From Campylobacter ureolyticus ACS-301-V-Sch3b (GTDB lineage: Bacteria; Campylobacterota; Campylobacteria; Campylobacterales; Campylobacteraceae): a stretch of DNA of 64,000 bases. Where the stretch lies: positions 71,667 through 135,666 of the forward strand of contig NZ_KE340327.1 in the NCBI RefSeq assembly GCF_000413435.1. The letters are read 5' to 3'. The first letter of the stretch is position 1. The number at the start of each line of letters is the position of its first letter. Position numbers and translations under genes: made by a program. The notes under the pieces were generated by a model. The model saw only the letters and a program-made list of their open reading frames with translations. It searched no databases and was not told the DNA's origin. Positions 8,808-60,660 of this stretch are shown piece by piece.

Positions 8808-9193
8808 AAAAAATATTAATATTAGCTGTTTTTGCAGCTGGAGTTTATGCGGCTCCTGATATGTCAGCGTATGAGGATAAATTTAATGCCTTGAGTCAAA
8901 AGAGAGCTGGGCTTAGTGACAAGGATATTTTATCTTTAAAAAGTCCCTTTCCAGTTGAAGAGTTTAAAAGTACCATATCAGATGATATAAAAGATACTGA
9001 TTTAGTTGGAAAAGAACTAAATGCAATTATTGCTGATAGGGTTAGAATAAATAAAGATTGGTATAAAATAGGCGATAGTATAGGCACTTTTGAAATAAAG
9101 AAAATTAATGAAAAAAGTGTTATTATTGAAAATGAAAAGAAAAGCTTAGAATTAAAACTAAAACAAGGAAATAAAAATGTCAAAATTAACTAA
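8804..9193 (+). CDS. PilP/GspC-like periplasmic protein (possible CtsR equivalent)
   Basis: About 129 aa from ATG 8804, chosen because it makes an ATGA overlap with the preceding stop and gives a clean signal peptide (MKKILILAVFAAGVYAAP). The C-terminal part (ELNAIIADRVRINKDWYKIG, then GTFEIKKINEKSVIIE) has the small beta-domain pattern of PilP and the GspC homology region, which contact the secretin. C. jejuni has a small competence gene, ctsR, directly upstream of ctsD; this may be its counterpart by position. The last 17 nt overlap ctsD. Confidence 0.7.
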   Translation: MKKILILAVFAAGVYAAPDMSAYEDKFNALSQKRAGLSDKDILSLKSPFPVEEFKSTISDDIKDTDLVGKELNAIIADRVRINKDWYKIGDSIGTFEIKKINEKSVIIENEKKSLELKLKQGNKNVKIN

Positions 9194-21794: not shown

Positions 21795-22127
21795 TTATAC
21801 TTTGACATTCCCGTTGTATTTTATCGCTCCAGCTTTTAGCTCCTTGTTTAGGACTTCATCAATAAAATCTTGTTTTAAAGAAAGATTGCTATCTTCGTAG
21901 CTATAGACCACGCAAGCCTCTTTTACATTTTCTAAACTCTCAATTTTTTTAAATGTTTTTATCTGTTCATCAAAGCTTTCACACTCCAAAACAACAACGA
22001 TTTGGCTGTTTTGATGAGCTATGACTTCACAATTTTTGATTTTATTTAGATTTTCTATGGCTAAATTCAGACCATTTTTATCTATTAAATTTACAACTAA
22101 ACTTGAAATATTCACTCTATCCTCCAA
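21795..22127 (-). CDS. napD: Nitrate reductase maturation chaperone NapD
   Basis: 110 aa. NapD binds the twin-arginine signal of NapA and holds back export until the molybdenum cofactor is inserted. The N-terminal pattern VNISSLVVNLIDKNGLNLAI, then CEVIAHQNSQIVVVLECESF, is the small ferredoxin-like NapD fold (ISSL followed by a beta strand near IVVVLE). It is the last gene of the nap operon and overlaps napL by 16 nt. Confidence 0.85.
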   Translation of the reverse strand: MEDRVNISSLVVNLIDKNGLNLAIENLNKIKNCEVIAHQNSQIVVVLECESFDEQIKTFKKIESLENVKEACVVYSYEDSNLSLKQDFIDEVLNKELKAGAIKYNGNVKV

Positions 22128-23020
22128 ATTTTAATATTTTTTTCATAAGCTGATGAAAAAATAAGATCTTTATAGATGATAATTGCATTTAGTGTGCTTT
22201 GATCTGTTTTTATAAAATCAACTTTTTTAAAACTCTTATCAAATACCGATATATCGCTATTTTCATCACTCATAAAAGCTAGATATCTATCACTCATTCC
22301 AACAGCATAGACTAAAAATTTAGCTTGAAAGCTTTTTAAATTTCCATCTTTATAAAAAACAGCATTTTTATCAGCCGAACCGCTTATAAACTCATCTTTG
22401 CCATTTATGTAAAGATCGTAGATATTATCTTTATGAGCCAAAATAGTATCCAAAACTCTATTTTCACCTAGTAAAAATTTGTAAATTTCACCACTTTCGC
22501 ACCCAACTATCAAAATATCATCTAAAATTTCAATATCGCCAAGTGATGAAGTAGAAAATTTATACTCAAAAATCACCTCTTTTTTGTTTAGGTCAAAAAA
22601 TGAGATCTCACTACTCAAACTTGCATAAACTATCAAATTTTCATTTATAAAAAGAGCCTTTTTAACACTTTCATTGTCTAATTTTATTTTGTTTAGAGCT
22701 CCATTTTCATAGATAAATATCGCTCTTTTATAATAATCATCCTCACTTAAAATCAAAATCTTATCATTAAGCGCATCTGTGCTAAAGACTTTTGGCGATT
22801 TTGTCTCAAAATATGATGAAATTTGAGGCAAATTTATGGTTTTTATAGTCTTATTTTGCTCCACATCATAGACCAAAACTTCGCCACTATCGGTTGAGAT
22901 GTATAAATTTTTATTTTTTAAAAGCAAATTTGTAACAGGATAGTTAGTTTTAATCTCACCTAAAAACTCTGCTGCAAAAATAAAGTTAAATAAAAGTAAA
23001 ATAGTTATAAAAACTCTCAA
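22112..23020 (-). CDS. napL: Periplasmic beta-propeller protein NapL
   Basis: 302 aa with a signal peptide (MRVFITILLLFNFIFA). The rest consists of repeated blade-like strands (VLVYDVEQNKTIKTI, EISFFDLNKKEVIFEYKF, GDIEILDDILIVGCESG, DEFISGSADKNAVFYKDG), consistent with a WD40/PQQ-type propeller. NapL occurs in epsilonproteobacterial nap operons and in Wolinella affects Nap activity only modestly; its exact role is not settled. It overlaps napF by 4 nt and napD by 16 nt. Confidence 0.85.
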   Translation of the reverse strand: MRVFITILLLFNFIFAAEFLGEIKTNYPVTNLLLKNKNLYISTDSGEVLVYDVEQNKTIKTINLPQISSYFETKSPKVFSTDALNDKILILSEDDYYKRAIFIYENGALNKIKLDNESVKKALFINENLIVYASLSSEISFFDLNKKEVIFEYKFSTSSLGDIEILDDILIVGCESGEIYKFLLGENRVLDTILAHKDNIYDLYINGKDEFISGSADKNAVFYKDGNLKSFQAKFLVYAVGMSDRYLAFMSDENSDISVFDKSFKKVDFIKTDQSTLNAIIIYKDLIFSSAYEKNIKIWRIE

Positions 23021-23454
23021 AAAGCAACTCCTTTTAAACTAAGTGCTTCATTAAAGCAAGCACCTACGCACTCGCCACATCCAACGCAGTTTTCATTGAT
23101 AGTTGGCTTAAAGACTCCAAAATACTCAATTGCTCTAAATTTGCAAACTTCATAGCAGTTATAGCACATCGTATCATTCCAAGCAAGGCAAGATGTTATC
23201 TCTATCTTTGCAACTGCATTTATTTTGGCGCTAAAGTCTAAATTTAGAGTGTTTTTTTGATTTTCTTGACAAGCAATTGCACATTTTTTACAAAAATCAC
23301 ATCCAAACTCATTTGGCTCAAAATAGACAAAATTCTCTTTAAGCTTAATTAGATTTTTATCACATGAAGTAACACAAGGTGCCTCGCATTCCAAACATTC
23401 AAATTTACCGCTAAAATAGGGCGGATAAATAGTCTTTTGAAATCTTTTTAGCAC
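23017..23454 (-). CDS. napF: Ferredoxin-type protein NapF
   Basis: 145 aa, cytoplasmic, no signal peptide. It carries many cysteines in ferredoxin-like clusters: CLECEAPCVTSC, CDFCKKCAIAC, CYNCYEVC and CVGCGECVGAC, each able to help bind a [4Fe-4S] centre. NapF proteins assist NapA maturation in the cytoplasm. The operon order napA-G-H-B-F-L-D matches Wolinella succinogenes; the C. jejuni operon, as I recall it, lacks napF, another sign that this is a different species. Confidence 0.87.
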   Translation of the reverse strand: MLKRFQKTIYPPYFSGKFECLECEAPCVTSCDKNLIKLKENFVYFEPNEFGCDFCKKCAIACQENQKNTLNLDFSAKINAVAKIEITSCLAWNDTMCYNCYEVCKFRAIEYFGVFKPTINENCVGCGECVGACFNEALSLKGVAF

Positions 23455-23466
23455 CTTTTTGTCCTT

Positions 23467-23955
23467 TTACTCAACGCCTTGATTTAGCACATCAAGTAGG
23501 TTTGAGCCATGTTTTAAAACTTTGTCTCTAAAAACTGCTTCAAATTTATTATTTACCACAGTTTTTGCATTTGATTGTGGCACGTGACATTGAACGCAGT
23601 TGTATCTAGTCATATCAAGTTCTCCGTGCAAATCCTTGCCAGTTCTTAAATCCACAAGATGAGATTTTGGTATGGCAGTTGAGCCAATATCTTTTGCAAA
23701 CTCAGGCATATGGCAGGTTGTGCACATATTAAGCTCTAGTGTAATTGGCAAAAGTCCATCTAGATCATGTGGTATAAGTGGTGGTGAGTTTTCAAAAGAT
23801 CTATCAAATCTAGTTGAAGTTCCAGGCGCATCACTGCTGTAGGCAAAATCTTGCAAAACTAAATTCTCTTCGCTCGTTAAACCAGCCTTTCTTAGGCCAT
23901 CTTGTTGGCTAAAAGCAAAGACAACACAGATGAAAAATAGTATAATTTTTCTCAT
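23467..23955 (-). CDS. napB: Periplasmic dihaem cytochrome subunit NapB
   Basis: 162 aa. NapB passes electrons to NapA. A signal peptide (MRKIILFFICVVFAFS) precedes two CXXCH haem c sites, CTTCH (followed by MPEF) and CVQCH (followed by VPQS). The family segments PPLIPHDLDGLLPITLELNM and VQCHVPQSNA are clear. The start overlaps the napH stop by 4 nt. Confidence 0.95.
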   Translation of the reverse strand: MRKIILFFICVVFAFSQQDGLRKAGLTSEENLVLQDFAYSSDAPGTSTRFDRSFENSPPLIPHDLDGLLPITLELNMCTTCHMPEFAKDIGSTAIPKSHLVDLRTGKDLHGELDMTRYNCVQCHVPQSNAKTVVNNKFEAVFRDKVLKHGSNLLDVLNQGVE

Positions 23956-24734
23956 TTTTTATCCTTTTTTATAATACCGAAATTTAATGCATCGTGGGCG
24001 CAAACATCTACGCAACGACCGCAGCTTATACAGCTACTACTAATAAAAAAATCTTTTTTTGAAATATCTTTTAAAATGCCATCTTCTGGGCAAACCTTAA
24101 TGCAGTCCATGCATTTTGTGCAGTTTTTAAAACTATGTTTTACTCTTATTAGTGAGAGTTTTGAAAGTAGTGCGTAAAATGCACCAAGTGGGCAAATTTT
24201 AGAGCAAACTCCTCTTTTTGCTACAAAAAGATCAAAAACAAAAAGCAAAAAAGCAACATTTAAAAAGGTGAAATTTAGATAAATTAATCCCCTTTGAATA
24301 ACCCCTACAAAACTTATATTTTCAAAAGCTGGCACGCCCAAAACAAAACTAGCTATCAAACTCAAAGCTAAAAAATAGTATCTAAAATTTGCATTTAAGC
24401 TCAGATAACCGCCTCTAATTTTAAGTTTTTTTCTTATAAAGTAGGCAAAATCTGTTATGAGATTAACAGGGCAAACCCACGAACAAAAGAGCCTTGGAGC
24501 TATCAAACTATAAAATAAAGCAACGATTAAAGCGCCACTTATTGCAACAAATGAAACATTGAAAGTTGCTAGGTAAATTTGAAGCACTGCAAATGGGTCA
24601 CTTAGTGAAATTTTACCAAATAAAATAGAGCTACTTAAATTTCCCTTTAAAATATTTAAAATTTCTAAATTTCCAAGCATAAAAAGAGCTAAAACCAAAA
24701 ATTGAACAACTCTTCTAAGATTGTTTATTTTCAT
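23952..24734 (-). CDS. napH: Quinol dehydrogenase membrane subunit NapH
   Basis: 260 aa with four or five membrane helices, a CSWVCPVN motif near residue 88, CSKICPLGAFYALL near 175 and two C-terminal ferredoxin motifs (CTKCMDCIKVCP, then CISCGRCVDVC). NapH accepts electrons from menaquinol and passes them through NapG to NapB/NapA. No napC is present in this operon, so NapGH is the likely sole quinol route, as in other Campylobacterota. The start overlaps the napG stop by one base. Confidence 0.95.
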   Translation of the reverse strand: MKINNLRRVVQFLVLALFMLGNLEILNILKGNLSSSILFGKISLSDPFAVLQIYLATFNVSFVAISGALIVALFYSLIAPRLFCSWVCPVNLITDFAYFIRKKLKIRGGYLSLNANFRYYFLALSLIASFVLGVPAFENISFVGVIQRGLIYLNFTFLNVAFLLFVFDLFVAKRGVCSKICPLGAFYALLSKLSLIRVKHSFKNCTKCMDCIKVCPEDGILKDISKKDFFISSSCISCGRCVDVCAHDALNFGIIKKDKK

Positions 24735-25471
24735 TAAAACTCCTCGTTATTTAGATAATCAAGCGCTTTTGTTTTATCAAGCTTTATCTTTGTGTTGGCA
24801 TCTTTTAGCTTTTTATCGCCATTTTTTTCCCAGCCAATTACATAGTTATCATTCATCTTGCCAAGCACAAACTCTCTTCTAACTACGCTAATAGCAGCTT
24901 TTTTAGTAATACAAACTTTCTCGCACATCCCACATCCCGTGCAAATATCGCCATCAACAACTGGAAGTAAAAATGCATGTTTTGCCGTTCTATCATTTCT
25001 TTTGTATTCTAGATATAAAGCCCTATCTATAAGCGGACAGGCTCTATAACAGGCATCGCATTGAATTCCAAAGTAGGCAACACAACTTTTCATATCCACA
25101 ACCGCAACACCAGATCTCATCAAATTTACATCTAGCAAACCATCTTTTTGCAAAGACTTTATATCAAGTGCAGATGTTGGGCAAATAGCAGCACAAGGGA
25201 TATCTTCACACATATAACATGGAATTTTTCTTGGTATAAAATAGGGCGTTGAAATAGAGGTGTTGTCAAAAATAGTGCTAAGTTTAAGTGTGTCGTATGG
25301 ACAGGCTTCCACGCAAAGTCCGCACTTTATGCAACTTGCCACAAAGCTTTTTTCATCTTTTGCACCAGGTGGTCTTAAGAAAAATTTAGCTTCTGTGTTT
25401 TTAGGAATGCTCCATAAAATCCCGCCAGCACTAAACAGACAAGCTATTTTTAACACCTCTCTTCTTGTCAT
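24734..25471 (-). CDS. napG: Iron-sulfur electron carrier NapG
   Basis: 245 aa. An N-terminal signal with twin arginines (MTRREVLKIACLFSAGGILW) predicts Tat export. Four [4Fe-4S] motifs follow: CIKCGLCVEACPY, CYMCEDIPCAAICP, CDACYRACP and CTGCGMCEKVC. NapG works with NapH to carry electrons from menaquinol to NapB. It sits 4 nt after napA and overlaps napH by one base. Confidence 0.95.
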   Translation of the reverse strand: MTRREVLKIACLFSAGGILWSIPKNTEAKFFLRPPGAKDEKSFVASCIKCGLCVEACPYDTLKLSTIFDNTSISTPYFIPRKIPCYMCEDIPCAAICPTSALDIKSLQKDGLLDVNLMRSGVAVVDMKSCVAYFGIQCDACYRACPLIDRALYLEYKRNDRTAKHAFLLPVVDGDICTGCGMCEKVCITKKAAISVVRREFVLGKMNDNYVIGWEKNGDKKLKDANTKIKLDKTKALDYLNNEEF

Positions 25472-25475
25472 AAAT

Positions 25476-28259
25476 CTACGCCTTATAAATCTTTACTGCA
25501 CATTTTTTATAATCAGTTTCGTTTGATAAAGGGCAGGTCGCATCAAGACAAACTTTATTTATAAAGACATTTTCATCAAACCAAGGAACATAGACTAGTC
25601 CAACAGGCGGTTTGTTTCGTCCTCTTAAATCAACTCTTGCCTTAACTTTTCCACGCCTACTTTCTATCCAAACTACGTCATTTTGCATCAAATTTAGCTT
25701 TCCAGCATCTAACTCGCTCATATAGCACATTGCTTCAGGAACTGCTTTGTAAAGCTCAGGAACTCTCATTGTCATCGTTCCGCTATGCCAATGCTCTAAA
25801 ACTCTTCCAGTGCATAACCAAAATGGATACTCTTTATTTGGAATCTCAGGTGGATCCATATAAGGGCGGAAGAAAATTTTACCTTTGTTGTTTATATCAA
25901 CCTTTTCATCATCTTTTGCCTTTGCTAAATCTCCAGCACTTAGTTTTGCACCTTTGTTTCCATAAAATGCAAAATCACTTTGTGGTGCTTCTTTTTTAGC
26001 ATAAGGATCATAAAGTGTATTAAATCTCCATTGAGTTTCTTTGCCATCAACAACTGGCCATCTCAAGCCCCTAACTTTGTGATATGTATCAAAATCAGCC
26101 AAATCATGTCCATGACCTAGTCCAAATTTGCGGTACTCTTCCCAAATTGCTTTTTGAACAAAAAAGCCATATCCTTTAAACTCTTTTCCATCGCTTCCAA
26201 CTACATTTCTGCTATCGCCATTTACTTCTGAGTTGTCAAACTTGCCCATGATTTTGTCATCTTTGCTAAATTTTTTCCACTCATCATTTGCAAAAAGCAC
26301 ATCAAATAGCGTATCACTTTCTTTGTAGCCCATTTTTTTAGCCTCTTCTAAAACATTTGGAAGAGTGAGTTTTTCATCTATCTTTTTTTCACCCCAAACA
26401 TCTTTTAAGGTAAATCGTTTTGAAAACTCAAGCATTTGCCAAGTATCACTCATAGCATCGCCTACTGGAATAACTTGCTGGCGCCAATGTTGAGTTCTTC
26501 TTTCAGCATTGCCATAAGAACCCCATTTTTCATAAATCATTGCTGTTGGAAGTATTAGATCTGCTACTTTTGCTGAAATTCCAGGATAAACTTCACTTAC
26601 TACGATAAAATTATCCATCTCTCTTGCTGCTTTTATCCAATGGTTTGCATTTGCGGTATTTTGCCAAGGGTTATTTACCTGCACCCAAGCAAATTTAATT
26701 TTGCCATCTTCTAAATCTCTCATAATTTTTACAAAATGTGAGCCATTTTTTGGATTAATAGTGCCATTTGGTAGTTTCCAAATTTTTTCAGTAATAGCTC
26801 TGTGTTTTGGATTTGCAACAACCATATCAGCAGGAAGTCTATGACAAAATGTTCCAACCTCTCTTGCTGTTCCGCACGCACTTGGCTGACCTGTTAAAGA
26901 AAATGCCCCATTTCCAGGTTTTGCTTGCTTTCCGAGCAGAAAGTGCACCATATAGCTTTGTTCATTTACCCAAGTTCCTCTTGTGTGTTGGTTAAATCCC
27001 ATAGTCCAAAAGCTAACAACTTTTCTCTGTTTTTCTATATATAAATCAGCTAGTGCCTTAAGTTTTGCTTTAAACTCCTGGGTATCTTCATTTTCATCGC
27101 CTTTTGCAATTTTTGCAGTATATTCAAGAGTATATGGAGCAAGCGCTTTTTTAAAATCTTCAAAACTTATCGCCCAGTGTTTTCCAGCTGATTTTGTATT
27201 TTTCATCTCTAAAATATCGCCTGATTTATATCCAAGATATTTTAAACTCTCTGCTTCAAAGTCGCTTACAATCTTGCTTTTTTGTTTTGCAGCGGTATCA
27301 AGCTCACTTTTTTTGTATTTTGGATGGTTTATATCTTCTCTTAAGCCATAACCAATATCTACAGGTCCTGTTGCAAATGTGCAGTGATTTTTAACAAAAT
27401 CCATATCTATTAAATCAGGATGATTATAAACAAGCTCTCTTGCGATGTAGTTCCAAATAGCAAGATCAGTTGATGGTCTAAAAATAATCTCAATATCTGC
27501 CAAATTTGAAGTTCTAGTTGAATAGGTGCTTAAATTTACAACTCTGACATTTTCTGGATCGCTTAATTTTCTATCGCTTACTCTTGCCCACAAAATTGGG
27601 TGCATTTCAGCCATATTTGCACCCCAGCAAACAATAGTATCAGTTAGCTCGATATCATCAAAACAGCCTGATGGTTCATCAATTCCAAAAGTCTGCATAA
27701 AGCCAACAACCGCACTTGCCATACAGTGTCTTGCGTTTGGATCGAGGTTATTACTTCTAAATCCACCTTTTATAAGTTTTGAAGCGACATAGCCTTCTTG
27801 GATTGTGTATTGACCACTCCCAAAAACACCAATTCCTGTAGGTCCAAGCTCATTATATGTTTTTTTAAACTGCTTTTCCATCTCATCAAAGGCTCTTTGC
27901 CAGCTAACAGGGGCAAATTTACCTTTTTTATCAAACTCACCTTTTTCATTCATTCTTAAAAGTGGTTTTGTCAAGCGGTCTTCGCCATACATAATTTTAG
28001 CGTTAAAATAACCTTTTATGCAGTTTAAGCCTCTATTTACTGGAGCTTTAGGATCGCCTTTTACAGCTACTATTTTTCCATCTTTTGTAGCTACCATAAT
28101 CCCGCATCCAGTTCCACAAAACCGACAAACTGCCTTATCCCATCTCCATGATTTTTCAGCTTCGTTTGATTTAGCTGATAAAGAAGATGGAACACTTATG
28201 CCAATAGCAGAACAGGCCGAGGCTGCTGCAGCACTTTTGATAAAATCTCTTCTATTCAT
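25476..28259 (-). CDS. napA: Periplasmic nitrate reductase catalytic subunit NapA
   Basis: 927 aa, the long NapA form of this group. It reduces nitrate to nitrite with a bis-MGD molybdenum cofactor and one [4Fe-4S] cluster. Residues 1-30 are a twin-arginine signal ([15 protein letters not shown]). Cluster cysteines are C45, C48, C52 and C80 (CRFCGTGC, then RGLNC). C179 in NARHCMAS is the expected Mo ligand. Late segments [20 protein letters not shown] and [10 protein letters not shown] are typical. It is the first gene of the operon and has GGAGGA 6 bp before its ATG. Confidence 0.97.
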
Positions 28260-33332: not shown

Positions 33333-33968
33333 TTAACTCTCATTAAGCCAAATTTCTCTATTTTTTATCTTTATAATACCCTCTTTTTCCATGAGATAAA
33401 ACTCTCTTGAAAGTGCAGATCTATTGCAAGATAGGTATTTTGCTAGGTCTTCTTGATTGAAAATGGGTTTTATCAAATTTGAACCAGTTTTCTCCCTTTC
33501 GCTGTTTAAAAAGAGTAAAATCCTCTCTCTAAGATGTGTTTTCGAGTAGATATTTAGCTTAAATGAGAGATGACTCATAAATTTATTTAGATCTTTTATT
33601 AGGTTTTGCATAAAGATAGTTTTGTGTTGGCAGTTTCTTTTATTTTCATCAAAAATTGTCCCAATATCCATAGAGATCAAAGTAGATTTTCTCTTTGTCC
33701 TTAAAAACCGCTTATCACTTTTGCCAAAGTCATAGACCAAACTATCCCCAGCCATAAGCCTATCGTCAATTATCTCCCTTTTTTCCAAAGAGATGATATC
33801 AACAACGCCATCTTTTAGAAGCAGTGCCTTAAAGCCTTGGCTTAGATCATACAAATAGATATTTTTATCAAAAGTAAAAATTCTATACTCTATGCAATTT
33901 AGGATTTTTTTGATCTCATTTTCATCAATTCCAGTAAATAGAGAGGAATTTTTAAAAAATTCTATCAT
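33333..33968 (-). CDS. Crp/Fnr-family transcriptional regulator
   Basis: 211 aa: an N-terminal cyclic-nucleotide-binding-like beta barrel (about residues 1-110), a dimer helix (about 115-150) and a C-terminal winged helix at about 170-205. The recognition helix reads LSCNRSALSREF, so the E-x-x-S-R of FNR is replaced by S-x-x-S-R. The N-terminal cysteine cluster of FNR is missing (only scattered cysteines in ILNCIE and NCQH), so it is not an oxygen sensor of the E. coli FNR type; haem or another ligand is possible. It is divergent from the methyltransferase operon, with a perfect palindrome between. Confidence 0.85.
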   Translation of the reverse strand: MIEFFKNSSLFTGIDENEIKKILNCIEYRIFTFDKNIYLYDLSQGFKALLLKDGVVDIISLEKREIIDDRLMAGDSLVYDFGKSDKRFLRTKRKSTLISMDIGTIFDENKRNCQHKTIFMQNLIKDLNKFMSHLSFKLNIYSKTHLRERILLFLNSEREKTGSNLIKPIFNQEDLAKYLSCNRSALSREFYLMEKEGIIKIKNREIWLNES

Positions 33969-33981
33969 ATTTTAGCCTTTT

Positions 33982-34030
33982 GTTGCTATAGCAACTAATA
34001 ATTGTTATCAAGTTTATTATAATTATACCA
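33982..34030 (+). promoter_or_regulatory. Palindromic operator and promoter of the methyltransferase-receptor-ABC operon
   Basis: GTTGCTATAGCAAC (33982-33995) is a perfect 14-bp palindrome between the divergent regulator and methyltransferase genes. A -10 hexamer TATAAT is at 34018-34023 with no good -35. A start 7 bp after it (34030) places the palindrome centre at -41.5, where Crp/Fnr-type class II activators bind. The half-site differs from the FNR half-site TTGAT, in line with the altered recognition helix of the adjacent regulator. It also lies about 14 bp before the regulator gene, so autoregulation is possible. Confidence 0.65.
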
Positions 34031-34052
34031 AATTTAATTTGAAAGGATAGAG

Positions 34053-34796
34053 ATGAGTAGTAGAATTTTGGGTCATACTTTTATGAAAAATTTAGGCAGA
34101 ACCAAACTTAGACCAGGTGGCGGAGTTACTACAAAGTGGCTTTTAAATGAGGCAAACATTCAGCCAAGCAGCAAAATTTTAGAAGTAGGCTGCAACCACG
34201 CAGACAACATAATTGGCATATATAATGAGTATAAGTGCGATGTAAAGGCCATAGATTTGGACGATGAAGCGTTGCAGGAGTGCAGACAAAACTTAAATTT
34301 ATTGGGCTTTGAAAAGGAGATTGAAGTTTTTAATATGGACGCTAAAGATCTAAAATTTCCAGATGCGACCTTTGATATCGTCATCAATGAAGCAATGCTT
34401 ACTATGTTAAATCCAAACGACAAAAAAAGAGCTGTTTTGGAATATCACAGAGTTTTAAAGCAAGACGGACTTTTGCTAACTCACGACATCGCAATAGTAG
34501 ATAGTTCTATAAAAAAAGAGCTCTCACAAGCTGTCAATATAAACACCTATCCACTTACAAAAGAGGATTGGTTTTCGTTGTTTGAGTCAAATGGTTTTAA
34601 GGTGCAAAGTTTTAAAATGGGTAGGTTTCTTTTGCTAGATAAAGAGACAATTATCAAAGATGAGGGTGCCATAAATGCTGCTAAGTTTTATAAAAATGCA
34701 CAAAAAGAGGAGAACAAAGAGCAGTTTTCCAAAATGCTAAAAGCTACAAGCAACAAGAGCATAAACTACATAGCAATTGTTTCAAAAAAGATATAA
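34053..34796 (+). CDS. Class I SAM-dependent methyltransferase
   Basis: 247 aa with a Rossmann-type core. Motif I is KILEVGCNHADNIIGI at about residues 37-52 (N-H in place of the usual G-x-G), an acidic residue ends strand 2 (VKAIDLDDEAL), motif IV region is FDIVINEAMLTML, followed by RVLKQDGLLLTHD. The substrate cannot be read from sequence. It has AAAGGATAGAG before its ATG and is the first gene of the operon; the cupin gene starts 3 nt after its stop. It could modify a small molecule handled by the transporter, or help make one. Confidence 0.85.
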   Translation: MSSRILGHTFMKNLGRTKLRPGGGVTTKWLLNEANIQPSSKILEVGCNHADNIIGIYNEYKCDVKAIDLDDEALQECRQNLNLLGFEKEIEVFNMDAKDLKFPDATFDIVINEAMLTMLNPNDKKRAVLEYHRVLKQDGLLLTHDIAIVDSSIKKELSQAVNINTYPLTKEDWFSLFESNGFKVQSFKMGRFLLLDKETIIKDEGAINAAKFYKNAQKEENKEQFSKMLKATSNKSINYIAIVSKKI

Positions 34797-34799
34797 AGT

Positions 34800-35438
34800 A
34801 TGAGAAATTTAGCTATTGGCAAAAAAATTAGCCTAACAAAACAGCTGCCTCATGTAAAGCACCAAACTATCTCTAAAAGACTTAGCTCCAAATTTGATAT
34901 CTCTCTTTTTTATATGGATGAAAAGACAGATATTAGCACAGAGCTCTATTTTGAGTATAAATTTTATCTCATCTTAGAGGGCGAGGTTTTGATAGCAAAA
35001 AAGCGCCTTAAGGTTGGCGATAGTTTGGTCTGTCTTCCTATGGAGCCATTTTGTATAGAGGCTATCAAAGAGACTATTTTTTTAGAAATTACGATAAATT
35101 TAACGGAGGAAAAGATGAAAAATTTAGAAAAAGGTAGAGTCATTGAACTTAAAAATATGATTGATTATGTAGATGGCGCCATCTCAAATTTGGATATTGC
35201 TAGCACAAAAAATATGAAAATGATGCTTATGTCTTTTGACGCCAATGAGGGACTAAAGCCTCACTCTGCGCCAGGAGATGCATTGGTTGTGCCTTTGGAG
35301 GGCAGAGCCAAAGTTATGGTTGGGGATGAGGAGTTTGAGATAGGAGAGCAAGAGCAAATCGTGTTTCCTAAAAATATCAAACACAATGTAACAGCCATAA
35401 CGAAATTTAAGATGATGTTAGTTTTGGTTATAGACTAA
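34800..35438 (+). CDS. Double-cupin protein
   Basis: 212 aa with two cupin-like beta-barrel halves. The first is around residues 55-100 (FYLILEGEVLIAKKRLKVGD, with few metal-ligand residues). The second is around 150-210 (GLKPHSAPGDALVVPLEGRA, then FEIGEQEQIVFPKNIKHNVT) and keeps two histidines and a glutamate that could bind a metal. No signal peptide, so cytoplasmic. Cupins range from enzymes to ligand-binding proteins; the function here is unknown. It is tightly linked to the methyltransferase (3 nt) and the receptor gene (3 nt). Confidence 0.8.
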   Translation: MRNLAIGKKISLTKQLPHVKHQTISKRLSSKFDISLFYMDEKTDISTELYFEYKFYLILEGEVLIAKKRLKVGDSLVCLPMEPFCIEAIKETIFLEITINLTEEKMKNLEKGRVIELKNMIDYVDGAISNLDIASTKNMKMMLMSFDANEGLKPHSAPGDALVVPLEGRAKVMVGDEEFEIGEQEQIVFPKNIKHNVTAITKFKMMLVLVID

Positions 35439-35441
35439 ATT

Positions 35442-37319
35442 ATGAGTTTAGCTATGAAAAGAGCAGTTTTACTATCACTAACGCTTAGTTCTATTTTGAT
35501 GGCTGAGAATTTAGCCAGCACAACTCAAGTTGGCCCGTTAAAGAGCTTTTCGCCGCCAAAGCCCATAGCGCCAAATATAGCGCAAGGTTATATGGTGGAA
35601 AATCAATTTGATCGTCCAAATCGCCAAGACTATTTTTCCACTTCAAGTTTGGTTTATAGAAATTTAGATAAGTTTCATATAAGTTCGGGAGTTTATGGAA
35701 AAAGTTTTTACAATTCAGCGCTTTTTAAATACCGCGGTGGCAACTTCTATACAAATTTAAACATCAACCATACAAAGGCAAATAGCTACAAAGATGGCGG
35801 CGGCAACAGAGTTTGGTTTGGATATGAGAGATTTAATCAAGCTGTTATTTTAGGCTATCTACCAAATGAGTTTTTGGAGCATAGGTTGGTTTTTATACAT
35901 GATAATATCGATGATGACAAACAGCCGCACAACCCAGCAGACGCCATCAAAACAGAAAGATATATCACCAAATTTAAGACAAGAGTTGGCGAGCAGGATT
36001 TAAGCAATACAGTTCTTTTTGACTTAAGCCATATTCATCTAAAAAGAGAGTCCAACAACTTTTCTTTAAGAAAGGCAGCTAAAAATAAAGTTTTTGTTGA
36101 TGTAGGACGCGATATTTATGAATTTTTACTTAGTTATGAGAGAGATTTAGATAGTTTTCACAACAGTTTTGGAGGCAGCTTTGCCTATGATGATCACATC
36201 GCAAAAAGATATCTAAAGACTCCAAATAGGGATGTTTTAAATGGATATCGCTTTCCAGATGTTGTGCAAAAAACATATAAAATTTACAACTCTACAAGCT
36301 ATGAGCCAAGCCAAAATCATAAGTTTTCTTTAGGTTTTGAATATATCCACAACGACGCTAAGGCAAAGAAATTTGACGCAATGATACCAAATCCCAGAGT
36401 TAGTGGCACTTTTTTTCCAAGCCCAAAGGCTTTATGGAGACAAACTTATGGAGTTGATTTTGATGGTAGCATAAAACAAAATCTCTTTAACGTGAAATTT
36501 AAATATGATTTTAGGCCTTTGAATTTGGAAAGCTATAGTGTTGAGTTAGCTAGGATTTCAAGACTTCCTAGCAATCCAGAGAGATTTTCAGCGCTTTTTG
36601 CTCCAGCAATGCCACAAAACTCCAAGATTAGCAATCCGCACTTAGAGCCTGAGATTCACAACTTCATCAAATTTAGCTTCGATGTCAAAAGTAAATTTTA
36701 TAAAAGTTATTTAGACTCATTAAATAGAGTTGGACTAAACTTTGGCGGATACGTTATGGCAGACAAGGTAAAGGACTTGATTATTTTTGATAGAGCAAGA
36801 GGTCAGAGCGGAGTTGTTGCCAAAAATGGCGGTATCGTTACTAGAAATGTTGATGCGACCATATATAGTACAAACTTATATACAAAGTTAAATTTCACTC
36901 CAAATTTTGCCACTTCACTAAATCTTACTTATAAATATGGACAAAACGATGATGACAAAAGAGCGCTCTATCAAATCCGCCCCTTTGAAGCGCTTTTAAA
37001 TTTGGATTATATGGATTATACAACTTTTGGTAGCTACAATATAGGCTCTGCTATTAGATATGTTGCAAAGCAAAATAGAGGCGATTTTGACAAAAAAACA
37101 GGGCTTGGGATTGATAGCAAAAATAGCGATTTTACCACTCTTGATCTCTACGCCGGAGTTAATGTCAAAGATAAATTTGGCCTTAGGTTGGGCGTAAATA
37201 ATCTCTTTGATAGAGAGTATGCTGAGTTTATTACAGGTGAGCATGTTGAGGCTTTGGATAGTGCGACTATAAATGCTCCAGGAAGAGTCTTTTATATGAG
37301 TTTTCACGCAAGTTTTTAA
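35442..37319 (+). CDS. OprC-like TonB-dependent receptor barrel, apparently without plug domain
   Basis: 625 aa; the second ATG at 35454 gives the better signal peptide (MKRAVLLSLTLSSILMA). After about 40 residues the sequence already consists of outer-membrane beta strands (FHISSGVYGKSFYNSALFKY). The ~130-residue plug domain, with its VLRGP-like motif, that normally opens a TonB-dependent receptor is not there. Segments SYKDGGGNRV, NNFSLRKA, LGVNNLFDREYAEF and INAPGRVFYM resemble the copper receptor OprC/NosA group as I remember it. The C-terminus ends in an aromatic (FHASF), as expected for BAM insertion. No clear TonB box is seen. Possible roles: copper or chelate uptake with a separate plug, or an open porin. 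Confidence 0.8.
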   Translation: MSLAMKRAVLLSLTLSSILMAENLASTTQVGPLKSFSPPKPIAPNIAQGYMVENQFDRPNRQDYFSTSSLVYRNLDKFHISSGVYGKSFYNSALFKYRGGNFYTNLNINHTKANSYKDGGGNRVWFGYERFNQAVILGYLPNEFLEHRLVFIHDNIDDDKQPHNPADAIKTERYITKFKTRVGEQDLSNTVLFDLSHIHLKRESNNFSLRKAAKNKVFVDVGRDIYEFLLSYERDLDSFHNSFGGSFAYDDHIAKRYLKTPNRDVLNGYRFPDVVQKTYKIYNSTSYEPSQNHKFSLGFEYIHNDAKAKKFDAMIPNPRVSGTFFPSPKALWRQTYGVDFDGSIKQNLFNVKFKYDFRPLNLESYSVELARISRLPSNPERFSALFAPAMPQNSKISNPHLEPEIHNFIKFSFDVKSKFYKSYLDSLNRVGLNFGGYVMADKVKDLIIFDRARGQSGVVAKNGGIVTRNVDATIYSTNLYTKLNFTPNFATSLNLTYKYGQNDDDKRALYQIRPFEALLNLDYMDYTTFGSYNIGSAIRYVAKQNRGDFDKKTGLGIDSKNSDFTTLDLYAGVNVKDKFGLRLGVNNLFDREYAEFITGEHVEALDSATINAPGRVFYMSFHASF

Positions 37320-37329
37320 AGGATATTTT

Positions 37330-38292
37330 ATGAAAAGAAGAGAGTTTTTAACCACTAGTTCGGCTTTGATGGCAACTATGTTTGCACCAAATTTATTTGC
37401 CAAAGAGAGTTTTACTATTTATGGTGCACCTGCACTTCCAAGCATAGTTATAGCGGTTGGGCTTTTGCAAGGCAAGATAAATAGAGAAGTTAGTACAAGC
37501 TTAGAAATTTGGAAAAACCCAGATCAACTTAGAGCAGGCGTTGCAAGCGGTAAATTTAAAGTGATGATGAGCCCTTCAAATGTAGCTGTAAATTTAAGAA
37601 ATCAAGGGCAAAATGTCGCGATGTTTAACAACCTAACAAATGGCATAAATAGTCTTATGGTAAAAGACAAGAGTGTAAAAGCTCCAGAGGATCTGATCGG
37701 CAAAAAGCTCATAATGCCCTTTAAAAACGATATGCCAGATATTGTCTTTAGGGCGCTTTTTAGAAAGTTAAATATCGATATCTCCAAGATAGATATCTCT
37801 TATACAGCGACGCCACCAGAGGCTGTTACGCACTTTTTGACAAAAGATTATGATGCGACTTTTTTGCCAGAACCAATGGCAAGTGTAACTATTCTTAGAG
37901 GTAAGCAGAGAGGCCTTTCCATCTACAAAGCATTTGATTTTCTGGATTTTTGGGGTGAAGCCTTTAAGACAAAGCCGCTAATTCCGCAAGCAGGCATTAT
38001 TGTAGATGTGGATTATTATGATAAAAACAGAGCTCTGTTTGATATCTTGCAAAGCGACTTGGAAGATGCGCTAAAGTGGATTATGAGTAACAAACAAAGC
38101 GCTGCAAACATTGGCTCAAATTACCTACCAGCGCCTATTCCAGCGATTGCTCAAAGCTTAGAAAGTGCAAATTTAAGTGTAACTAGAGCAAGAGATATCA
38201 AAGATGAAGCGATGAAATTTTTTGAAATCATCATGGAGTTCAATCCAAAGCTAATCGGCTCAAAACTGCCAGATAAGAGCTTTTTTATATGA
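37330..38292 (+). CDS. Periplasmic substrate-binding protein, NitT/TauT type
   Basis: 320 aa. The N-terminus MKRREFLTTSSALMATMFAP has twin arginines followed by EFL, suggesting Tat export. The mature part has the two-lobed pattern of NMT1/NrtA-type binding proteins: SIVIAVGLLQGKINREVSTS, LEIWKNPDQLRAGVASGKFK, APEDLIGKKLIMPFKND and YDATFLPEPMASVTI. Known relatives bind sulfonates, nitrate, thiamine precursors or aromatic acids; the ligand here is unknown. AAAGGATATTTT precedes the ATG. It overlaps the permease by ATGA. Confidence 0.88.
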   Translation: MKRREFLTTSSALMATMFAPNLFAKESFTIYGAPALPSIVIAVGLLQGKINREVSTSLEIWKNPDQLRAGVASGKFKVMMSPSNVAVNLRNQGQNVAMFNNLTNGINSLMVKDKSVKAPEDLIGKKLIMPFKNDMPDIVFRALFRKLNIDISKIDISYTATPPEAVTHFLTKDYDATFLPEPMASVTILRGKQRGLSIYKAFDFLDFWGEAFKTKPLIPQAGIIVDVDYYDKNRALFDILQSDLEDALKWIMSNKQSAANIGSNYLPAPIPAIAQSLESANLSVTRARDIKDEAMKFFEIIMEFNPKLIGSKLPDKSFFI

Positions 38293-39095
38293 TAAAAATA
38301 GATGGCATAGCAAAAGATCGCCATCCAATTATAAGGGTATTTGACTATCTTTATAGCGGATTTTTAAGTATCGGAGTTATTTTTGTCTTGATAGGGGTTT
38401 GGAAGTTTGTTAGCTTAAATTTAAATGAATTTTTACTTCCAAGTCCCGAAAAGGCATTTAAAAGAGCCTATTTTCTTATCTTAAATTTCAAAGAAAATGA
38501 GATAGATGTGACATTTTATCGTTTTTTCTTGGGATTTTTTATCTCATCGATAATTGGCATAACTCTTGGCTTAATTGCAGGTTGCTTTAAAACTATGAGA
38601 GTCTTTTTAAGACCAATAATCTCTATTTTGCTCTCAATGCCACCAATTGTTTGGATAGTAATGGCACTTTTTTGGTTTGGGTTTGGCGATGTTAGCACGC
38701 TTTTTACAACTATTTTGGTAACAACGCCACTAACATTTGCAAACACACTTTTGGGCGTTGTTAGCATAAGCAAAGAGAGCGCTGAAGTCTTTAAGGCTTA
38801 TAAATTGGGCTTTTTAAAAAAGCTTAAGTTTCTCTATGTGCCACATCTTTTGCCATACATTTTGTCTAGTTTAAGCCTTGCTGTTGCTGTTGCTGTTAAG
38901 ATAACAATTATGGCAGAACTTTTGGGCTCAAATAGCGGCATAGGGGCGAAGATAGCCGATGCAAGAGTTATGCTAGATAGTGTAGATACAATGGCATTTG
39001 TCCTAATAATCCTACTCTTTAGCGCCTTTATCGAGTATCTAGTTATTAAGCCACTCTCAATAATCCTAATACCGTGGCAAAAAGAGCTAAAATGA
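38289..39095 (+). CDS. ABC transporter permease, NitT/TauT type
   Basis: 268 aa with about six membrane helices. The ABC permease EAA-type loop is visible at KESAEVFKAYKLGFLKKLKF (about residues 159-178), followed by LYVPHLLPYILSSLSLAVAV. The overall pattern is that of SsuC/TauC-type permeases (PPIVWIVMALFWFGFGDVST). The start overlaps the binding-protein stop by ATGA and its own stop overlaps the ATPase start by ATGA, so all three are translationally coupled. Confidence 0.9.
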   Translation: MIKIDGIAKDRHPIIRVFDYLYSGFLSIGVIFVLIGVWKFVSLNLNEFLLPSPEKAFKRAYFLILNFKENEIDVTFYRFFLGFFISSIIGITLGLIAGCFKTMRVFLRPIISILLSMPPIVWIVMALFWFGFGDVSTLFTTILVTTPLTFANTLLGVVSISKESAEVFKAYKLGFLKKLKFLYVPHLLPYILSSLSLAVAVAVKITIMAELLGSNSGIGAKIADARVMLDSVDTMAFVLIILLFSAFIEYLVIKPLSIILIPWQKELK

Positions 39096-39790
39096 AGATG
39101 ATTGAAGTTAGAAATTTAAGATATGATATTTTAAATGAAATAATTATAAAAGATTTTAATTTTCAAATGAAAAGTGGAGAAATTTATACTCTTTTTGGAG
39201 CTTCAGGTTGTGGAAAGACGACGCTTTTAAGGCTAATTAGCCAGTTAGAAAAGCCTAAAAAAGGTGAGATAATAAACCAATTTGAAAAAACCACCTATCT
39301 TTTTCAAGAAAATCGCCTCTTAAACAACTTAAATGTTTTAGAAAATATCAGATTGTGTGCAAGCGATGTTGGTGATGATGAGATATATTATCACTTAAAA
39401 ATGGTCGGTTTTCAAAAAAGAGATCTTTACAAATATCCAAATGAGTTAAGTGGCGGCATGGCAAAAAGAGTTGCTTTTATGAGAGCATATCTATCAAAGC
39501 CTGATTTAATGCTTCTTGATGAGCCATTTAGCGGACTTGATATGGACTTAAAAAATTTGCTAGTAAATTTAATAATCCAAAAAGTAGAGAAAAAAGAGCT
39601 ATCTTGCATTTTGGTAACTCATGATAGGTATGAAGCTGTTTTGCTTAGCCATAAAATCAACTTTTTGACCAAAAAAGGAATGAAAGTTTATAAAATTTTA
39701 GAGATTGAGCAAAGTCTTAAAAACAGAGAGATGACTTTTATACAAAACGTTATCAATAGCGAATTTAAGGAAACAATCTACTATGACTAG
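39092..39790 (+). CDS. ABC transporter ATP-binding protein
   Basis: About 232 aa from ATG 39092, chosen because it forms ATGA with the permease stop; an in-frame GTG at 39074 is also possible. Walker A is FGASGCGKTTLLRLI (about residues 33-47), the signature is LSGGMAKRVAFMRA, Walker B is DLMLLDEPFSGLDM, and the switch histidine is in ILVTHDR. The replacement of R/Q by A-K after the signature (GGMAKR) is slightly unusual. It powers the NitT/TauT-type importer and overlaps the NnrS-like gene by 8 nt. Confidence 0.92.
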   Translation: MKMIEVRNLRYDILNEIIIKDFNFQMKSGEIYTLFGASGCGKTTLLRLISQLEKPKKGEIINQFEKTTYLFQENRLLNNLNVLENIRLCASDVGDDEIYYHLKMVGFQKRDLYKYPNELSGGMAKRVAFMRAYLSKPDLMLLDEPFSGLDMDLKNLLVNLIIQKVEKKELSCILVTHDRYEAVLLSHKINFLTKKGMKVYKILEIEQSLKNREMTFIQNVINSEFKETIYYD

Positions 39791-40805
39791 ATATTTTAAT
39801 AACTCAATGAGACTATTTTATATCTCATCTTGCGTTGCTATGATGCTAGGGGTCTGTTTTGCCTTGGCAAAGATGGATATCTATAAATTTATCTTTTTGC
39901 ATATTGCACCAGCTTTTGCATATAGCGGCTTTTTGCTAACTGCCTTAAAGTCGTGGCATAACTACACAAAATCCCTATTTTTAGTGAAAATAACCTTTTA
40001 TTTTGCCATTTTGTTAGCTTTGTTTTTATCTTTTTTTGCACTTAATTTATCATATTTGTTACTTGGAGTCTTTTGGCTTAGTTTTGCTATTGTTGCACTA
40101 TTTTTGATGATAAGAGATGGCAATTTAGCAAACATTAGCATAGCTTTTAGCCTTTTTAGCTTTTTTTTGGTTGAAGTTTTGCTCTTTTTAAACTATGATG
40201 AGAAATTTAGTGAGCTTTTTTTACATTTAAACTTAATTTTACTTTTGATTGTTGGCTTTAAGATTAGCTTAGTCATCGCAAACAAGGCATTAAAAGAGAT
40301 AAAAGATGCAGTTTTTATACCAAACTTTATCGATAAAAACCTAGCTATCTTTTTTATCTTTTTATATATGATAGCTTTTTTATATGACAAAAGTGTTTCA
40401 GGCTATTTTGCCATAGCTGTTGGACTGGTTGTTTTTGCCAAATTGCGTGAGCTTTTTTATCTCATTTTACTTAAAAAGGCATATGTTTTTATCTATTTTT
40501 TAATAACACTTTTTATGGCGATAGGTTACTTTGGGCTTGGAGTTTGTGAGCTGTTTTTGGCTAACTTTAGAGTGTGGATGATAGATTTTTTATATCTCTC
40601 ATCAGTTGTGGCTATGCTTCTTTTTATCTTTAATGTCACCTCTCTTTTGCATAGTAAAGAAGAGTTAAGCTTTACAAACTCAACTAAATTTAGCTTTTTA
40701 GCTCTCTTTTTGAGCGCTATCTTGGGAAACTTTTTATACCTACAAGCTCTCTTGCTTATTACAAGCCTACTTATCTGCATAACAAACCTTAAAAATATTA
40801 AATGA
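39783..40805 (+). CDS. NnrS-like haem/copper membrane protein
   Basis: 340 aa with about ten membrane helices and short loops. The segment FLHIAPAFAYSGFLLTALKS at about residues 38-57 resembles the NnrS family motif (histidine before a helix ending in GFLLTA-x-x-x-W). NnrS proteins are haem- and copper-containing membrane proteins, often controlled by NO-responsive Crp/Fnr regulators, that protect against nitrosative stress. Only the N-terminal motif is convincing; the family call is moderate. It overlaps the ATPase gene by 8 nt and is the last sizeable gene of the operon. Confidence 0.6.
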   Translation: MTRYFNNSMRLFYISSCVAMMLGVCFALAKMDIYKFIFLHIAPAFAYSGFLLTALKSWHNYTKSLFLVKITFYFAILLALFLSFFALNLSYLLLGVFWLSFAIVALFLMIRDGNLANISIAFSLFSFFLVEVLLFLNYDEKFSELFLHLNLILLLIVGFKISLVIANKALKEIKDAVFIPNFIDKNLAIFFIFLYMIAFLYDKSVSGYFAIAVGLVVFAKLRELFYLILLKKAYVFIYFLITLFMAIGYFGLGVCELFLANFRVWMIDFLYLSSVVAMLLFIFNVTSLLHSKEELSFTNSTKFSFLALFLSAILGNFLYLQALLLITSLLICITNLKNIK

Positions 40806-40897
40806 AAGCAGAAGTTGTATTGGTAAGAGCAGTTTTATTAAATCAAAATTGTATAACTAACTGTATAACTAAAAATCAGATAGCTAAATTTAAGTGA
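40802..40897 (+). CDS. Possible 31-aa peptide coupled to the NnrS-like gene
   Basis: An ATG at 40802 overlaps the NnrS-like stop (ATGA) and opens a 31-codon frame ending in TGA 40895-40897. The peptide (MKAEVVLVRAVLLNQNCITN and 11 more residues) contains CITNCIT, produced by a 12-bp tandem repeat. It matches nothing I recognise. The coupling pattern is the same as elsewhere in this operon, but so short a frame can arise by chance. Confidence 0.2.
   Translation: MKAEVVLVRAVLLNQNCITNCITKNQIAKFK
40850..40872. repeat. Two tandem copies of TGTATAACTAA
   Basis: TGTATAACTAA at 40850-40860 and again at 40862-40872, a 12-bp period. It lies between the end of the accessory operon and tRNA-Leu. No function is apparent. 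Confidence 0.6.
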
Positions 40898-59331: not shown

Positions 59332-60660
59332 TTAGTTTTTCAAAAATTTAACTAGGTCTGCTTTGGCATCACCACTTATTAAAGATAGATTGAAATTTTT
59401 CACTAAAAAATCAAGTATTTCGTCATTTATAAACTCAGGTAAACTTGGTCCTATATGGATATTTTTAACGCCTAAATACAATAACGCAATTAAAATAATA
59501 ACTGCTTTTTGTTCCATCCACATCAAAACTATGGAAATTGGAAGATCGTTTATAGCTATTCCTGTCGCCTCGCTTAGTGCTGTTGCGATTTTAACGGCAC
59601 CGTTGCTGTCGTTGCACTGCCCTAAATCAATATATCTTGGAATTTTTGTGCCTTCTATTAAGCCAAAATCAACATCATTAAATCTAAATTTGCCACAACT
59701 TGATGTTAAAATTACGCAGTCTTTTGGCAGACTTAGAGCCAAATCTCTATAGTAATTTCTATCATTTCCAGGTGCATCACATCCTGCAATTACAAAAAAT
59801 CTTCTAATCTTACCAGAAGTTACAGCTTTTAAAATTTCATCGGACATATTTAAAATGCTCTTATAATGCCCACCAGTTACCAAAGTAGCATCGCTTTGAA
59901 AGCCACTTATATCATCACATTCTAAAGCTTTATTAATTAGTGGTGTAAAATCATCATTTTCAATATGCCTAATTCCATCTGTTCCAGCGATACTATAACC
60001 AAAAAGTCTATCTTTATACTCGCAACTTTTTCTAAGTGGAACTATGCAATTTGTTGTCATCAAAATCGCACCTTTAAACTCATTAAAAAGTTTTGTTTGA
60101 TCAAACCACGCCTTGCCGATATTCCCCTTTAAATGTGGATATTTTTTAAGCTCTGGATAAGCGTGAGCTGGCAGCATTTCAGAGTGGGTGTAGATATTTA
60201 TACCTTTATTTTTAGTAGCATCAAGCAATTTTTTTAAGGCAAAAAGGTTGTGTCCGCTTACTAAAATAGCTTTTCCACAAGCTTTGTTTTGTGTGATTTT
60301 AACAGGTGATGGAATGCCAAAAGCATTGGTATGAGCTTGGCTTAATATATCCATTATTTTAACTCCTGCCTCACCAACTTTTAAAAGTTGTTTGATATGC
60401 TCATCAAAATTAAAATTTGAATTTGTCAAGGTAAAATAAAGCGTATCGGCTATGATTTTATCAACTTCGCTTGTATTTGCACCAAGTTCGTTTGCGTGGT
60501 GACGATATGCACTCATTCCTTTTAATCCAAAAATCATCATATCTTGCAAATTTGCTAATGTACTATTTTTACCACAGGTACCTTTGCTTTGACCTTTTGA
60601 GCCACAGCCATTTGGAGCACTCATTTCACATTGATGACAAAACATTTCTAAACCGCTCAT
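59332..60660 (-). CDS. hcp: Hybrid cluster protein, short (class III-like) form
   Basis: 442 aa, about 100 shorter than the classical hybrid cluster protein; class III members lack part of the helical domain. The N-terminal cluster cysteines are C8, C11, C19 and C29 (MFCHQCEMSAPNGCG). Later hybrid-cluster residues lie in GHNLFALKKLLDATK, THSEMLPAHAYPELKKYPHL, TTNCIVP, FVIAGCDAPGNDRNYYRDLA, TSSCGKFRFND and YIDLGQCNDSNGAV. Hcp is linked to NO reduction/S-nitrosylation and hydroxylamine reduction in other bacteria. An FNR-like box lies upstream. Confidence 0.93.
   Translation of the reverse strand: MSGLEMFCHQCEMSAPNGCGSKGQSKGTCGKNSTLANLQDMMIFGLKGMSAYRHHANELGANTSEVDKIIADTLYFTLTNSNFNFDEHIKQLLKVGEAGVKIMDILSQAHTNAFGIPSPVKITQNKACGKAILVSGHNLFALKKLLDATKNKGINIYTHSEMLPAHAYPELKKYPHLKGNIGKAWFDQTKLFNEFKGAILMTTNCIVPLRKSCEYKDRLFGYSIAGTDGIRHIENDDFTPLINKALECDDISGFQSDATLVTGGHYKSILNMSDEILKAVTSGKIRRFFVIAGCDAPGNDRNYYRDLALSLPKDCVILTSSCGKFRFNDVDFGLIEGTKIPRYIDLGQCNDSNGAVKIATALSEATGIAINDLPISIVLMWMEQKAVIILIALLYLGVKNIHIGPSLPEFINDEILDFLVKNFNLSLISGDAKADLVKFLKN

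Follow-up and report, generated by a model that had tools for sequence, protein, structure and literature searches.

Which substrate is handled by an operon that joins an outer-membrane receptor barrel, an ATP-binding cassette (ABC) importer of NitT/TauT type and an NnrS-like membrane protein, and that lies divergent from a Crp/Fnr-type regulator? We addressed this question for one such locus in a 64,000-nucleotide stretch of Campylobacter ureolyticus ACS-301-V-Sch3b (contig NZ_KE340327.1, positions 71,667 to 135,666; hereafter the window). At a probability of roughly one half, we propose that the operon assembles non-classical parts into a system that takes up a small iron chelate when iron is scarce. 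Its genes and promoter elements are the following.

33333..33968, minus strand: Crp/Fnr-type regulator of 211 amino acids (open reading frame, ORF; HTH_Crp_2 1.1e-6)
33982..33995, no strand given: Crp/Fnr-type operator GTTGC-N4-GCAAC, its centre 29.5 nt before the -10 hexamer
33996..34010, no strand given: Fur-box-like 7-1-7 palindrome TAATAATTGTTATCA with 2 mismatches, between the operator and the -10 hexamer
34018..34023, plus strand: -10 hexamer TATAAT, at the same spacing in the related locus L001
34053..34796, plus strand: class I S-adenosylmethionine-dependent methyltransferase (Methyltransf_25 5.6e-17)
34800..35438, plus strand: double cupin, gap of 3 to the methyltransferase (Cupin_2 3.1e-10, second half only)
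35442..37319, plus strand: plug-less OprC-type outer-membrane barrel of 22 strands, gap of 3 to the cupin
37330..38292, plus strand: NitT/TauT-type substrate-binding protein, gap of 10 to the receptor (NMT1 3.3e-5)
38289..39095, plus strand: ABC permease, overlap of 4 (BPD_transp_1 1.7e-18)
39074..39790, plus strand: ABC ATPase (ABC_tran 2.5e-30), listed from a GTG
39783..40805, plus strand: NnrS-like membrane protein, overlap of 8 (NnrS, PF05940, 5.3e-15)

The initial annotation, made from the letters alone, had described seven tightly coupled genes divergent from their regulator, with a codon use less A+T-rich than that of the flanks, and both descriptions held. The ORFs, gaps and overlaps agree, the likely ATPase start being the in-frame ATG at 39092, which leaves an overlap of 4 with the permease. 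GC content at third codon positions was 0.28-0.38 in the eight genes of the set and 0.10-0.25 in 12 further genes picked by hand from the window. The importer has its binding-protein fold, permease and ATPase in one unit, and a twin-arginine signal (KRREF) was read by eye in the binding protein. The NnrS-like protein scored 56.1 bits against PF05940 (gathering score 28). The nearest NCBIfam model of the methyltransferase was the DVU_1556 family, at 78 bits for a cut-off of 155, and the first half of the cupin is without a Pfam match. In sequence, the methyltransferase is 99% identical to a Campylobacter ureolyticus protein. Among RNA elements between 33000 and 41500, a tRNA alone reached the gathering score.

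Is this gene set more than a chance assembly? A gene-neighbourhood comparison, proposed at the outset, found the core homologues together in several classes, and this recurrence argues that it is. Five genes (barrel, Tat-type NitT/TauT binding protein, permease, ATPase and NnrS-like protein) are clustered in 18 of 27 loci from distantly related bacteria of mucosa and gut, namely Campylobacter, Helicobacter, Neisseria and other Neisseriaceae, and the Pasteurellaceae Lonepinella and Gallibacterium. The 27 loci comprise 25 from named genomes, obtained with a receptor profile, and two plasmid-collection records; the plasmid search gave a Neisseria chromosome record and Thioclava relatives. Other ORFs intervene between some members in Neisseria, three Cohaesibacter loci carry a diverged set, L014 ends after the binding protein, and L021, L023, L024, L025 and L027 have a barrel relative only, without the ABC set. 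G001, the nearest genome compared, contains 23% of the 31-letter words sampled from the window and has the operon in the matching position, following secA-lolC and preceding HU (gene names by reading); its operon proteins are 93.8-98.5% identical to those of the window.

The regulator, methyltransferase and cupin are accessory members. All three are present in the window, G001 and L001, and the regulator next to the cassette is 57% identical in L001 and 94% in G001 (locus L068). Elsewhere the accessories are partial: L004 has a divergent methyltransferase, L002 one cupin only and L052 a cupin 5' of the barrel, while in both L009 and L012 a Crp-type regulator follows NnrS. In L019, a Crp-type regulator, a methyltransferase, two cupins and a DUF364 "putative heavy-metal chelation" protein stand beside a second ABC set. 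Within a phylum sample of 298 genomes the methyltransferase occurs in one (G001) and the plug-less barrel in 36; these 36 were kept from 40 matches after G008, G118, G232 and G297 (last third only, in longer frames) were dropped, and they include G109, which has an arylsulfotransferase-linked paralogue alone, and split-receptor genomes such as G001. The barrel was also found in 3 of 140 Pasteurellaceae and 13 of 83 Neisseriaceae genomes. Methyltransferase homologues occur in 83 of 101 Pasteurellaceae genomes; 11 of 30 loci were read, of which 6 showed a crp-like gene alongside, as assigned by reading, and a single one the barrel, and this context gave no clue to the role.

In a tree of the three ABC-unit proteins (binding protein, permease and ATPase) with its root placed on Cohaesibacter, the Pasteurellaceae and Neisseriaceae are nested among Campylobacter, and a deer-stomach Campylobacter adjoins two deer-stomach Neisseriaceae. 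Because of this nesting and pairing, spread of the cassette by horizontal transfer is the simplest reading of the tree. Separately, a Cad-family (cadmium resistance) transporter gene lies between ATPase and NnrS in N. elongata (L016:17248-17895), and an ORF similar to it is present in N. bergeri (L015).

What has become of the receptor? TonB-dependent transporters combine a 22-strand barrel with an N-terminal plug; the window receptor has 22 strands (our count on the DSSP string) and lacks most of that plug. No Pfam hit was obtained for it, and in particular none to the plug domain PF07715; no TonB box was evident by eye. It matches the TonB-copper model TIGR01778 from profile position 141 on (167.6 bits, below the cut-off of 472), and its alignment to OprC starts at residue 224 by sequence profile and at 125 by model (precursor numbering). 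The label "plug-less" given by the initial annotation is thus right in the main, with the reservation that a conserved N-terminal remnant of about 55 residues remains, which in the model may match the end of the plug. To our knowledge, a natural receptor barrel without most of its plug is a design otherwise known only as a laboratory construct.

The copper ligands of the barrel are lost as well. The copper site of OprC is given as CxxxM-HxM, and its Ton box as residues 68-75, in PMC8610252. Among 57 plug-less proteins (that of the window and the first 56 listed relatives, partial ones included), His323 is replaced by Arg in 55 and Met325 by Ala in 49, so that HxM has become RxA in most of the family; the window has Ser at the second position (RxS). 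The plugged relatives, in contrast, keep His323, Met325 and Met147 in 17 of 17 and Cys143 in 12 of 17. The CxxxM region falls in the missing or rebuilt plug, where two alignments disagree. Compared with the OprC/NosA copper receptor, the window barrel is without the plug up to about OprC residue 125, Ton box included, has both His323 and Met325 replaced, and is accompanied by a NitT/TauT ABC unit and NnrS.

Several receptor variants were seen besides. The gene is split into two frames in G001 (L068:6401-8277, the window's nearest relative), in a Neisseria gonorrhoeae record (L026:10001-11921) and in genome G725 (L167/L168). A second plug-less barrel type, some 7 kb away from nosZ, is flanked by DsbA/DsbB on one side and arylsulfotransferase genes on the other (L062:8358-12034, L063:8344-12024), and distant family barrels without the ABC set neighbour 7TM sensor-like and response-regulator-like genes, as assigned by reading (L021:9647-11548, L023:9617-11569).

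The promoter evidence is what favours iron over copper. The operator GTTGC-N4-GCAAC has one exact match in the whole window, and 5 matches with at most one mismatch for 0.94 expected. Its distance to TATAAT places it near -41.5, which we take to be a class II activator position. In L001 the operator occurs twice with this spacing (8928-8941 and 14511-14524), in front of the barrel operon and of a separate methyltransferase-cupin unit, and at both promoters it is directly followed by TGATAAAGATTATCA (1 mismatch), at the place equivalent to that of TAATAATTGTTATCA in the window. Operator, Fur-like box and -10 hexamer are equally spaced in the three promoters, with 44 of 81 positions identical. 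Copies of GTTGC-N4-GCAAC in L004 and L019 (intragenic) and in L031 (no -10 hexamer at the right spacing) were taken as chance.

Taking the Fur box as the 7-1-7 consensus, we found 8 boxes with at most one mismatch in 30 sequences (627,636 bases), where 20 sets of first-order Markov sequences gave an expectation of 0.1; the 30 sequences were our choice among the loci. All eight lie at cassette promoters: two each in L001 and L004, and one each in L007, L013, L015 and L026 (L007, L015 and L026 all being Neisseria), three classes overall. When the count was extended to all 55 loci that measure 10 kb or more (1,095,479 bases), there were 9, and the ninth (L063:17703-17717), inside a nosZ match, is the sole one outside cassette promoters. 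Gallibacterium (L004) carries one box at the methyltransferase and a perfect one at the barrel, and the methyltransferase has its own box in both L001 and L004. With at most two mismatches, a box was found at or just 5' of the barrel start in Gallibacterium and in 13 of 13 barrel-bearing Neisseriaceae genomes, sites that are related by descent and do not make 13 independent cases.

We propose that Fur with iron would repress the operon promoter, and that the divergent Crp/Fnr-type protein would activate it from GTTGC-N4-GCAAC. The chelate would pass the outer membrane through the OprC-family barrel, probably without TonB gating since most of the plug is lost. The Tat-exported binding protein would then catch it, and permease and ATPase would import it. 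Inside, methyltransferase, cupin and NnrS might handle the ligand or the iron, for example by modifying the ligand, binding the iron, carrying out a haem-based reduction or giving protection from nitric oxide (NO).

A number of observations weigh against an iron cargo. The window's own box carries 2 mismatches (0.02 in 150 bp). No box with at most one mismatch was found in most Campylobacter cassettes (C. concisus-type, L008, L065, L069), in Helicobacter L012 or in C. troglodytis L022, nor one with at most two in the two Lonepinella genomes (L152, L153); per-region shuffle values in box-poor lineages ranged from 0.01 to 0.9 and were mostly unremarkable. The presence of a Fur box is no proof of an iron cargo. 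Among neighbours of the binding protein, those whose ligand is known bind sulfonates, pyrroloquinoline quinone (PQQ) or pyrimidines, not iron, and other relatives of the ABC unit adjoin NosL, NapA or [FeFe]-hydrogenase genes.

These points leave room for a possible, though in our view doubtful, alternative in which the system imports a small organic molecule (a cofactor or precursor, or an organic anion) for low-oxygen respiration, the Fur box simply coupling demand to iron status. It does not by itself explain why cassette and methyltransferase carry boxes across three classes, nor why related ABC units lie inside siderophore clusters. Two such units were found, L131 (with FecCD, Peripla_BP_2 and AraC) and L150 (with Peripla_BP_2, SIP and AraC), and in L069 a P19/FTR1-type iron operon stands 5' of the cassette (PF10634 1.8e-67, PF03239 2.3e-18).

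The wider relatives of the ABC unit have other neighbours too. The binding-protein subfamily occurs in 19 of 249 genomes of the Cohaesibacter order (E 1e-40). In L146 the series binding protein, permease, ATPase and NnrS (NnrS 8.6e-75) lies beside NosL, DUF2249, an ABC-2 permease, ApbE and CcoN, with nosF and nosY (the ABC-2 permease) assigned by reading only; in L145, DUF2249, an NnrS-like stretch, UbiU, UbiV, NapA and UbiD are near the unit. [FeFe]-hydrogenase-like and NuoF-like genes adjoin the ABC set in 10 of 23 loci compared (L134-L137 and L139-L144, alphaproteobacterial), and L138 has a barrel that matches TIGR01778 from position 140 only, beside a binding protein and a permease. A NosL link in L018, 7 kb off the cassette and not noticed in L019 or L020, was taken as chance. 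The unit appears to associate with iron, N-oxide respiration and hydrogen metabolism, which we infer to be iron-hungry low-oxygen processes. The working guess of the initial annotation, that the operon takes up a metal complex or a small ligand and is linked to low oxygen or NO, gains support from the Crp/Fnr-type operator, from NnrS, and from the ABC-NnrS relatives near NosL/DUF2249 and NapA/UbiU/UbiV. Elsewhere in the window, ORF reading shows a nap-type nitrate reductase operon (21795-28259) and a hybrid-cluster-protein-like gene (59332-60660).

Could the cargo instead be copper, as the initial annotation had suggested, or a copper chelate for haem-copper enzymes or nitrous oxide reductase? 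OprC is the closest family and fold of the barrel, L146 places the ABC-NnrS unit by NosL, ApbE, DUF2249 and the putative NosY, and, within the phylum sample, NosZ accompanies the barrel in 27 of 36 genomes, compared with 88 of 298 overall. We nevertheless consider copper unlikely, because most of the plug is missing, His323 has become Arg in 55 of the 57 plug-less proteins, and partnership with NosZ or a haem-copper oxidase is not obligatory. Across classes, NosZ is present in just 9 of the 21 barrel genomes behind loci L001-L020 and L022, some of which are incomplete metagenome-assembled genomes (MAGs), and a COX1 match in 18 of 21; both Lonepinella genomes and the MAG behind L001 have neither. 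Supply of NosZ, which is enriched in the phylum sample but not required, and supply of haem-copper oxidase, not required either, were both rejected as roles.

Least likely of all is that the operon serves NO protection by removing or recycling NO-damaged iron or nitrosyl complexes, with transport secondary: NnrS is a member of NO regulons according to PMC1274295, control is of Crp/Fnr type, and units of binding protein, permease, ATPase and NnrS-like protein (NnrS by similarity only) exist without a barrel in L131, L132 and L133, but NnrS is the most variable member of the cassette (a short ORF in L003, L004 and L011), the window's copy lacks several His kept in other cassette copies in the alignment, and the operator does not match the published NnrR motif quoted in that source.

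How does the proposed iron-chelate system compare with known ones? Systems of the Fec/Fhu type take up iron chelates in a TonB-dependent manner with an ABC importer. The cassette shares with them a receptor-type outer-membrane barrel, a binding protein, an ABC importer and a Fur-box-like promoter, but differs by the absence of most of the plug, by a Tat-exported NitT/TauT binding protein that is not of FecB type, by a BPD-type permease and by NnrS. NitT/TauT importers such as SsuABC, TauABC and PqqT have the same binding-protein fold and BPD-type permease, whereas the cassette subfamily has motifs of its own, W-xx-PDQLRAG and KNDMPD. No NCBIfam equivalog reached its cut-off for the importer among the matches listed (for the ATPase, the best 25 of 187). 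The best NCBIfam score of the permease was to SaoP of the selenocysteine-assisted organometal (SAO) genes, 98 bits and far under the cut-off of 295, and no search for selenoproteins was made. CrtA of Bordetella, a copper-chelate receptor, likewise serves a chelated metal at low availability, but is plugged, takes copper and falls in a sequence cluster separate from OprC, according to PMC12914433. Searches of one open-licence PMC library listed no account of this gene set, in line with the initial statement that no named system of this composition was known.

A more detailed version of the iron-chelate proposal, which we put forward as a speculation more likely wrong than right, is that a copper receptor has turned into a cork-less, TonB-independent channel for phenol- or catechol-type iron chelates, served by the Tat-exported binding protein, with methyltransferase and cupin freeing the iron by ligand modification, and that the system has spread horizontally through several classes of bacteria that live on mucosae and in the gut. 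Annotation overlooks the system because the barrel has no Pfam hit and relatives of the binding protein are named "nitrate" or "taurine". The defined gene set and the promoter elements can be put to the test and, if the proposal is true, host-associated Campylobacter and Neisseria would possess an iron route that annotation has overlooked.

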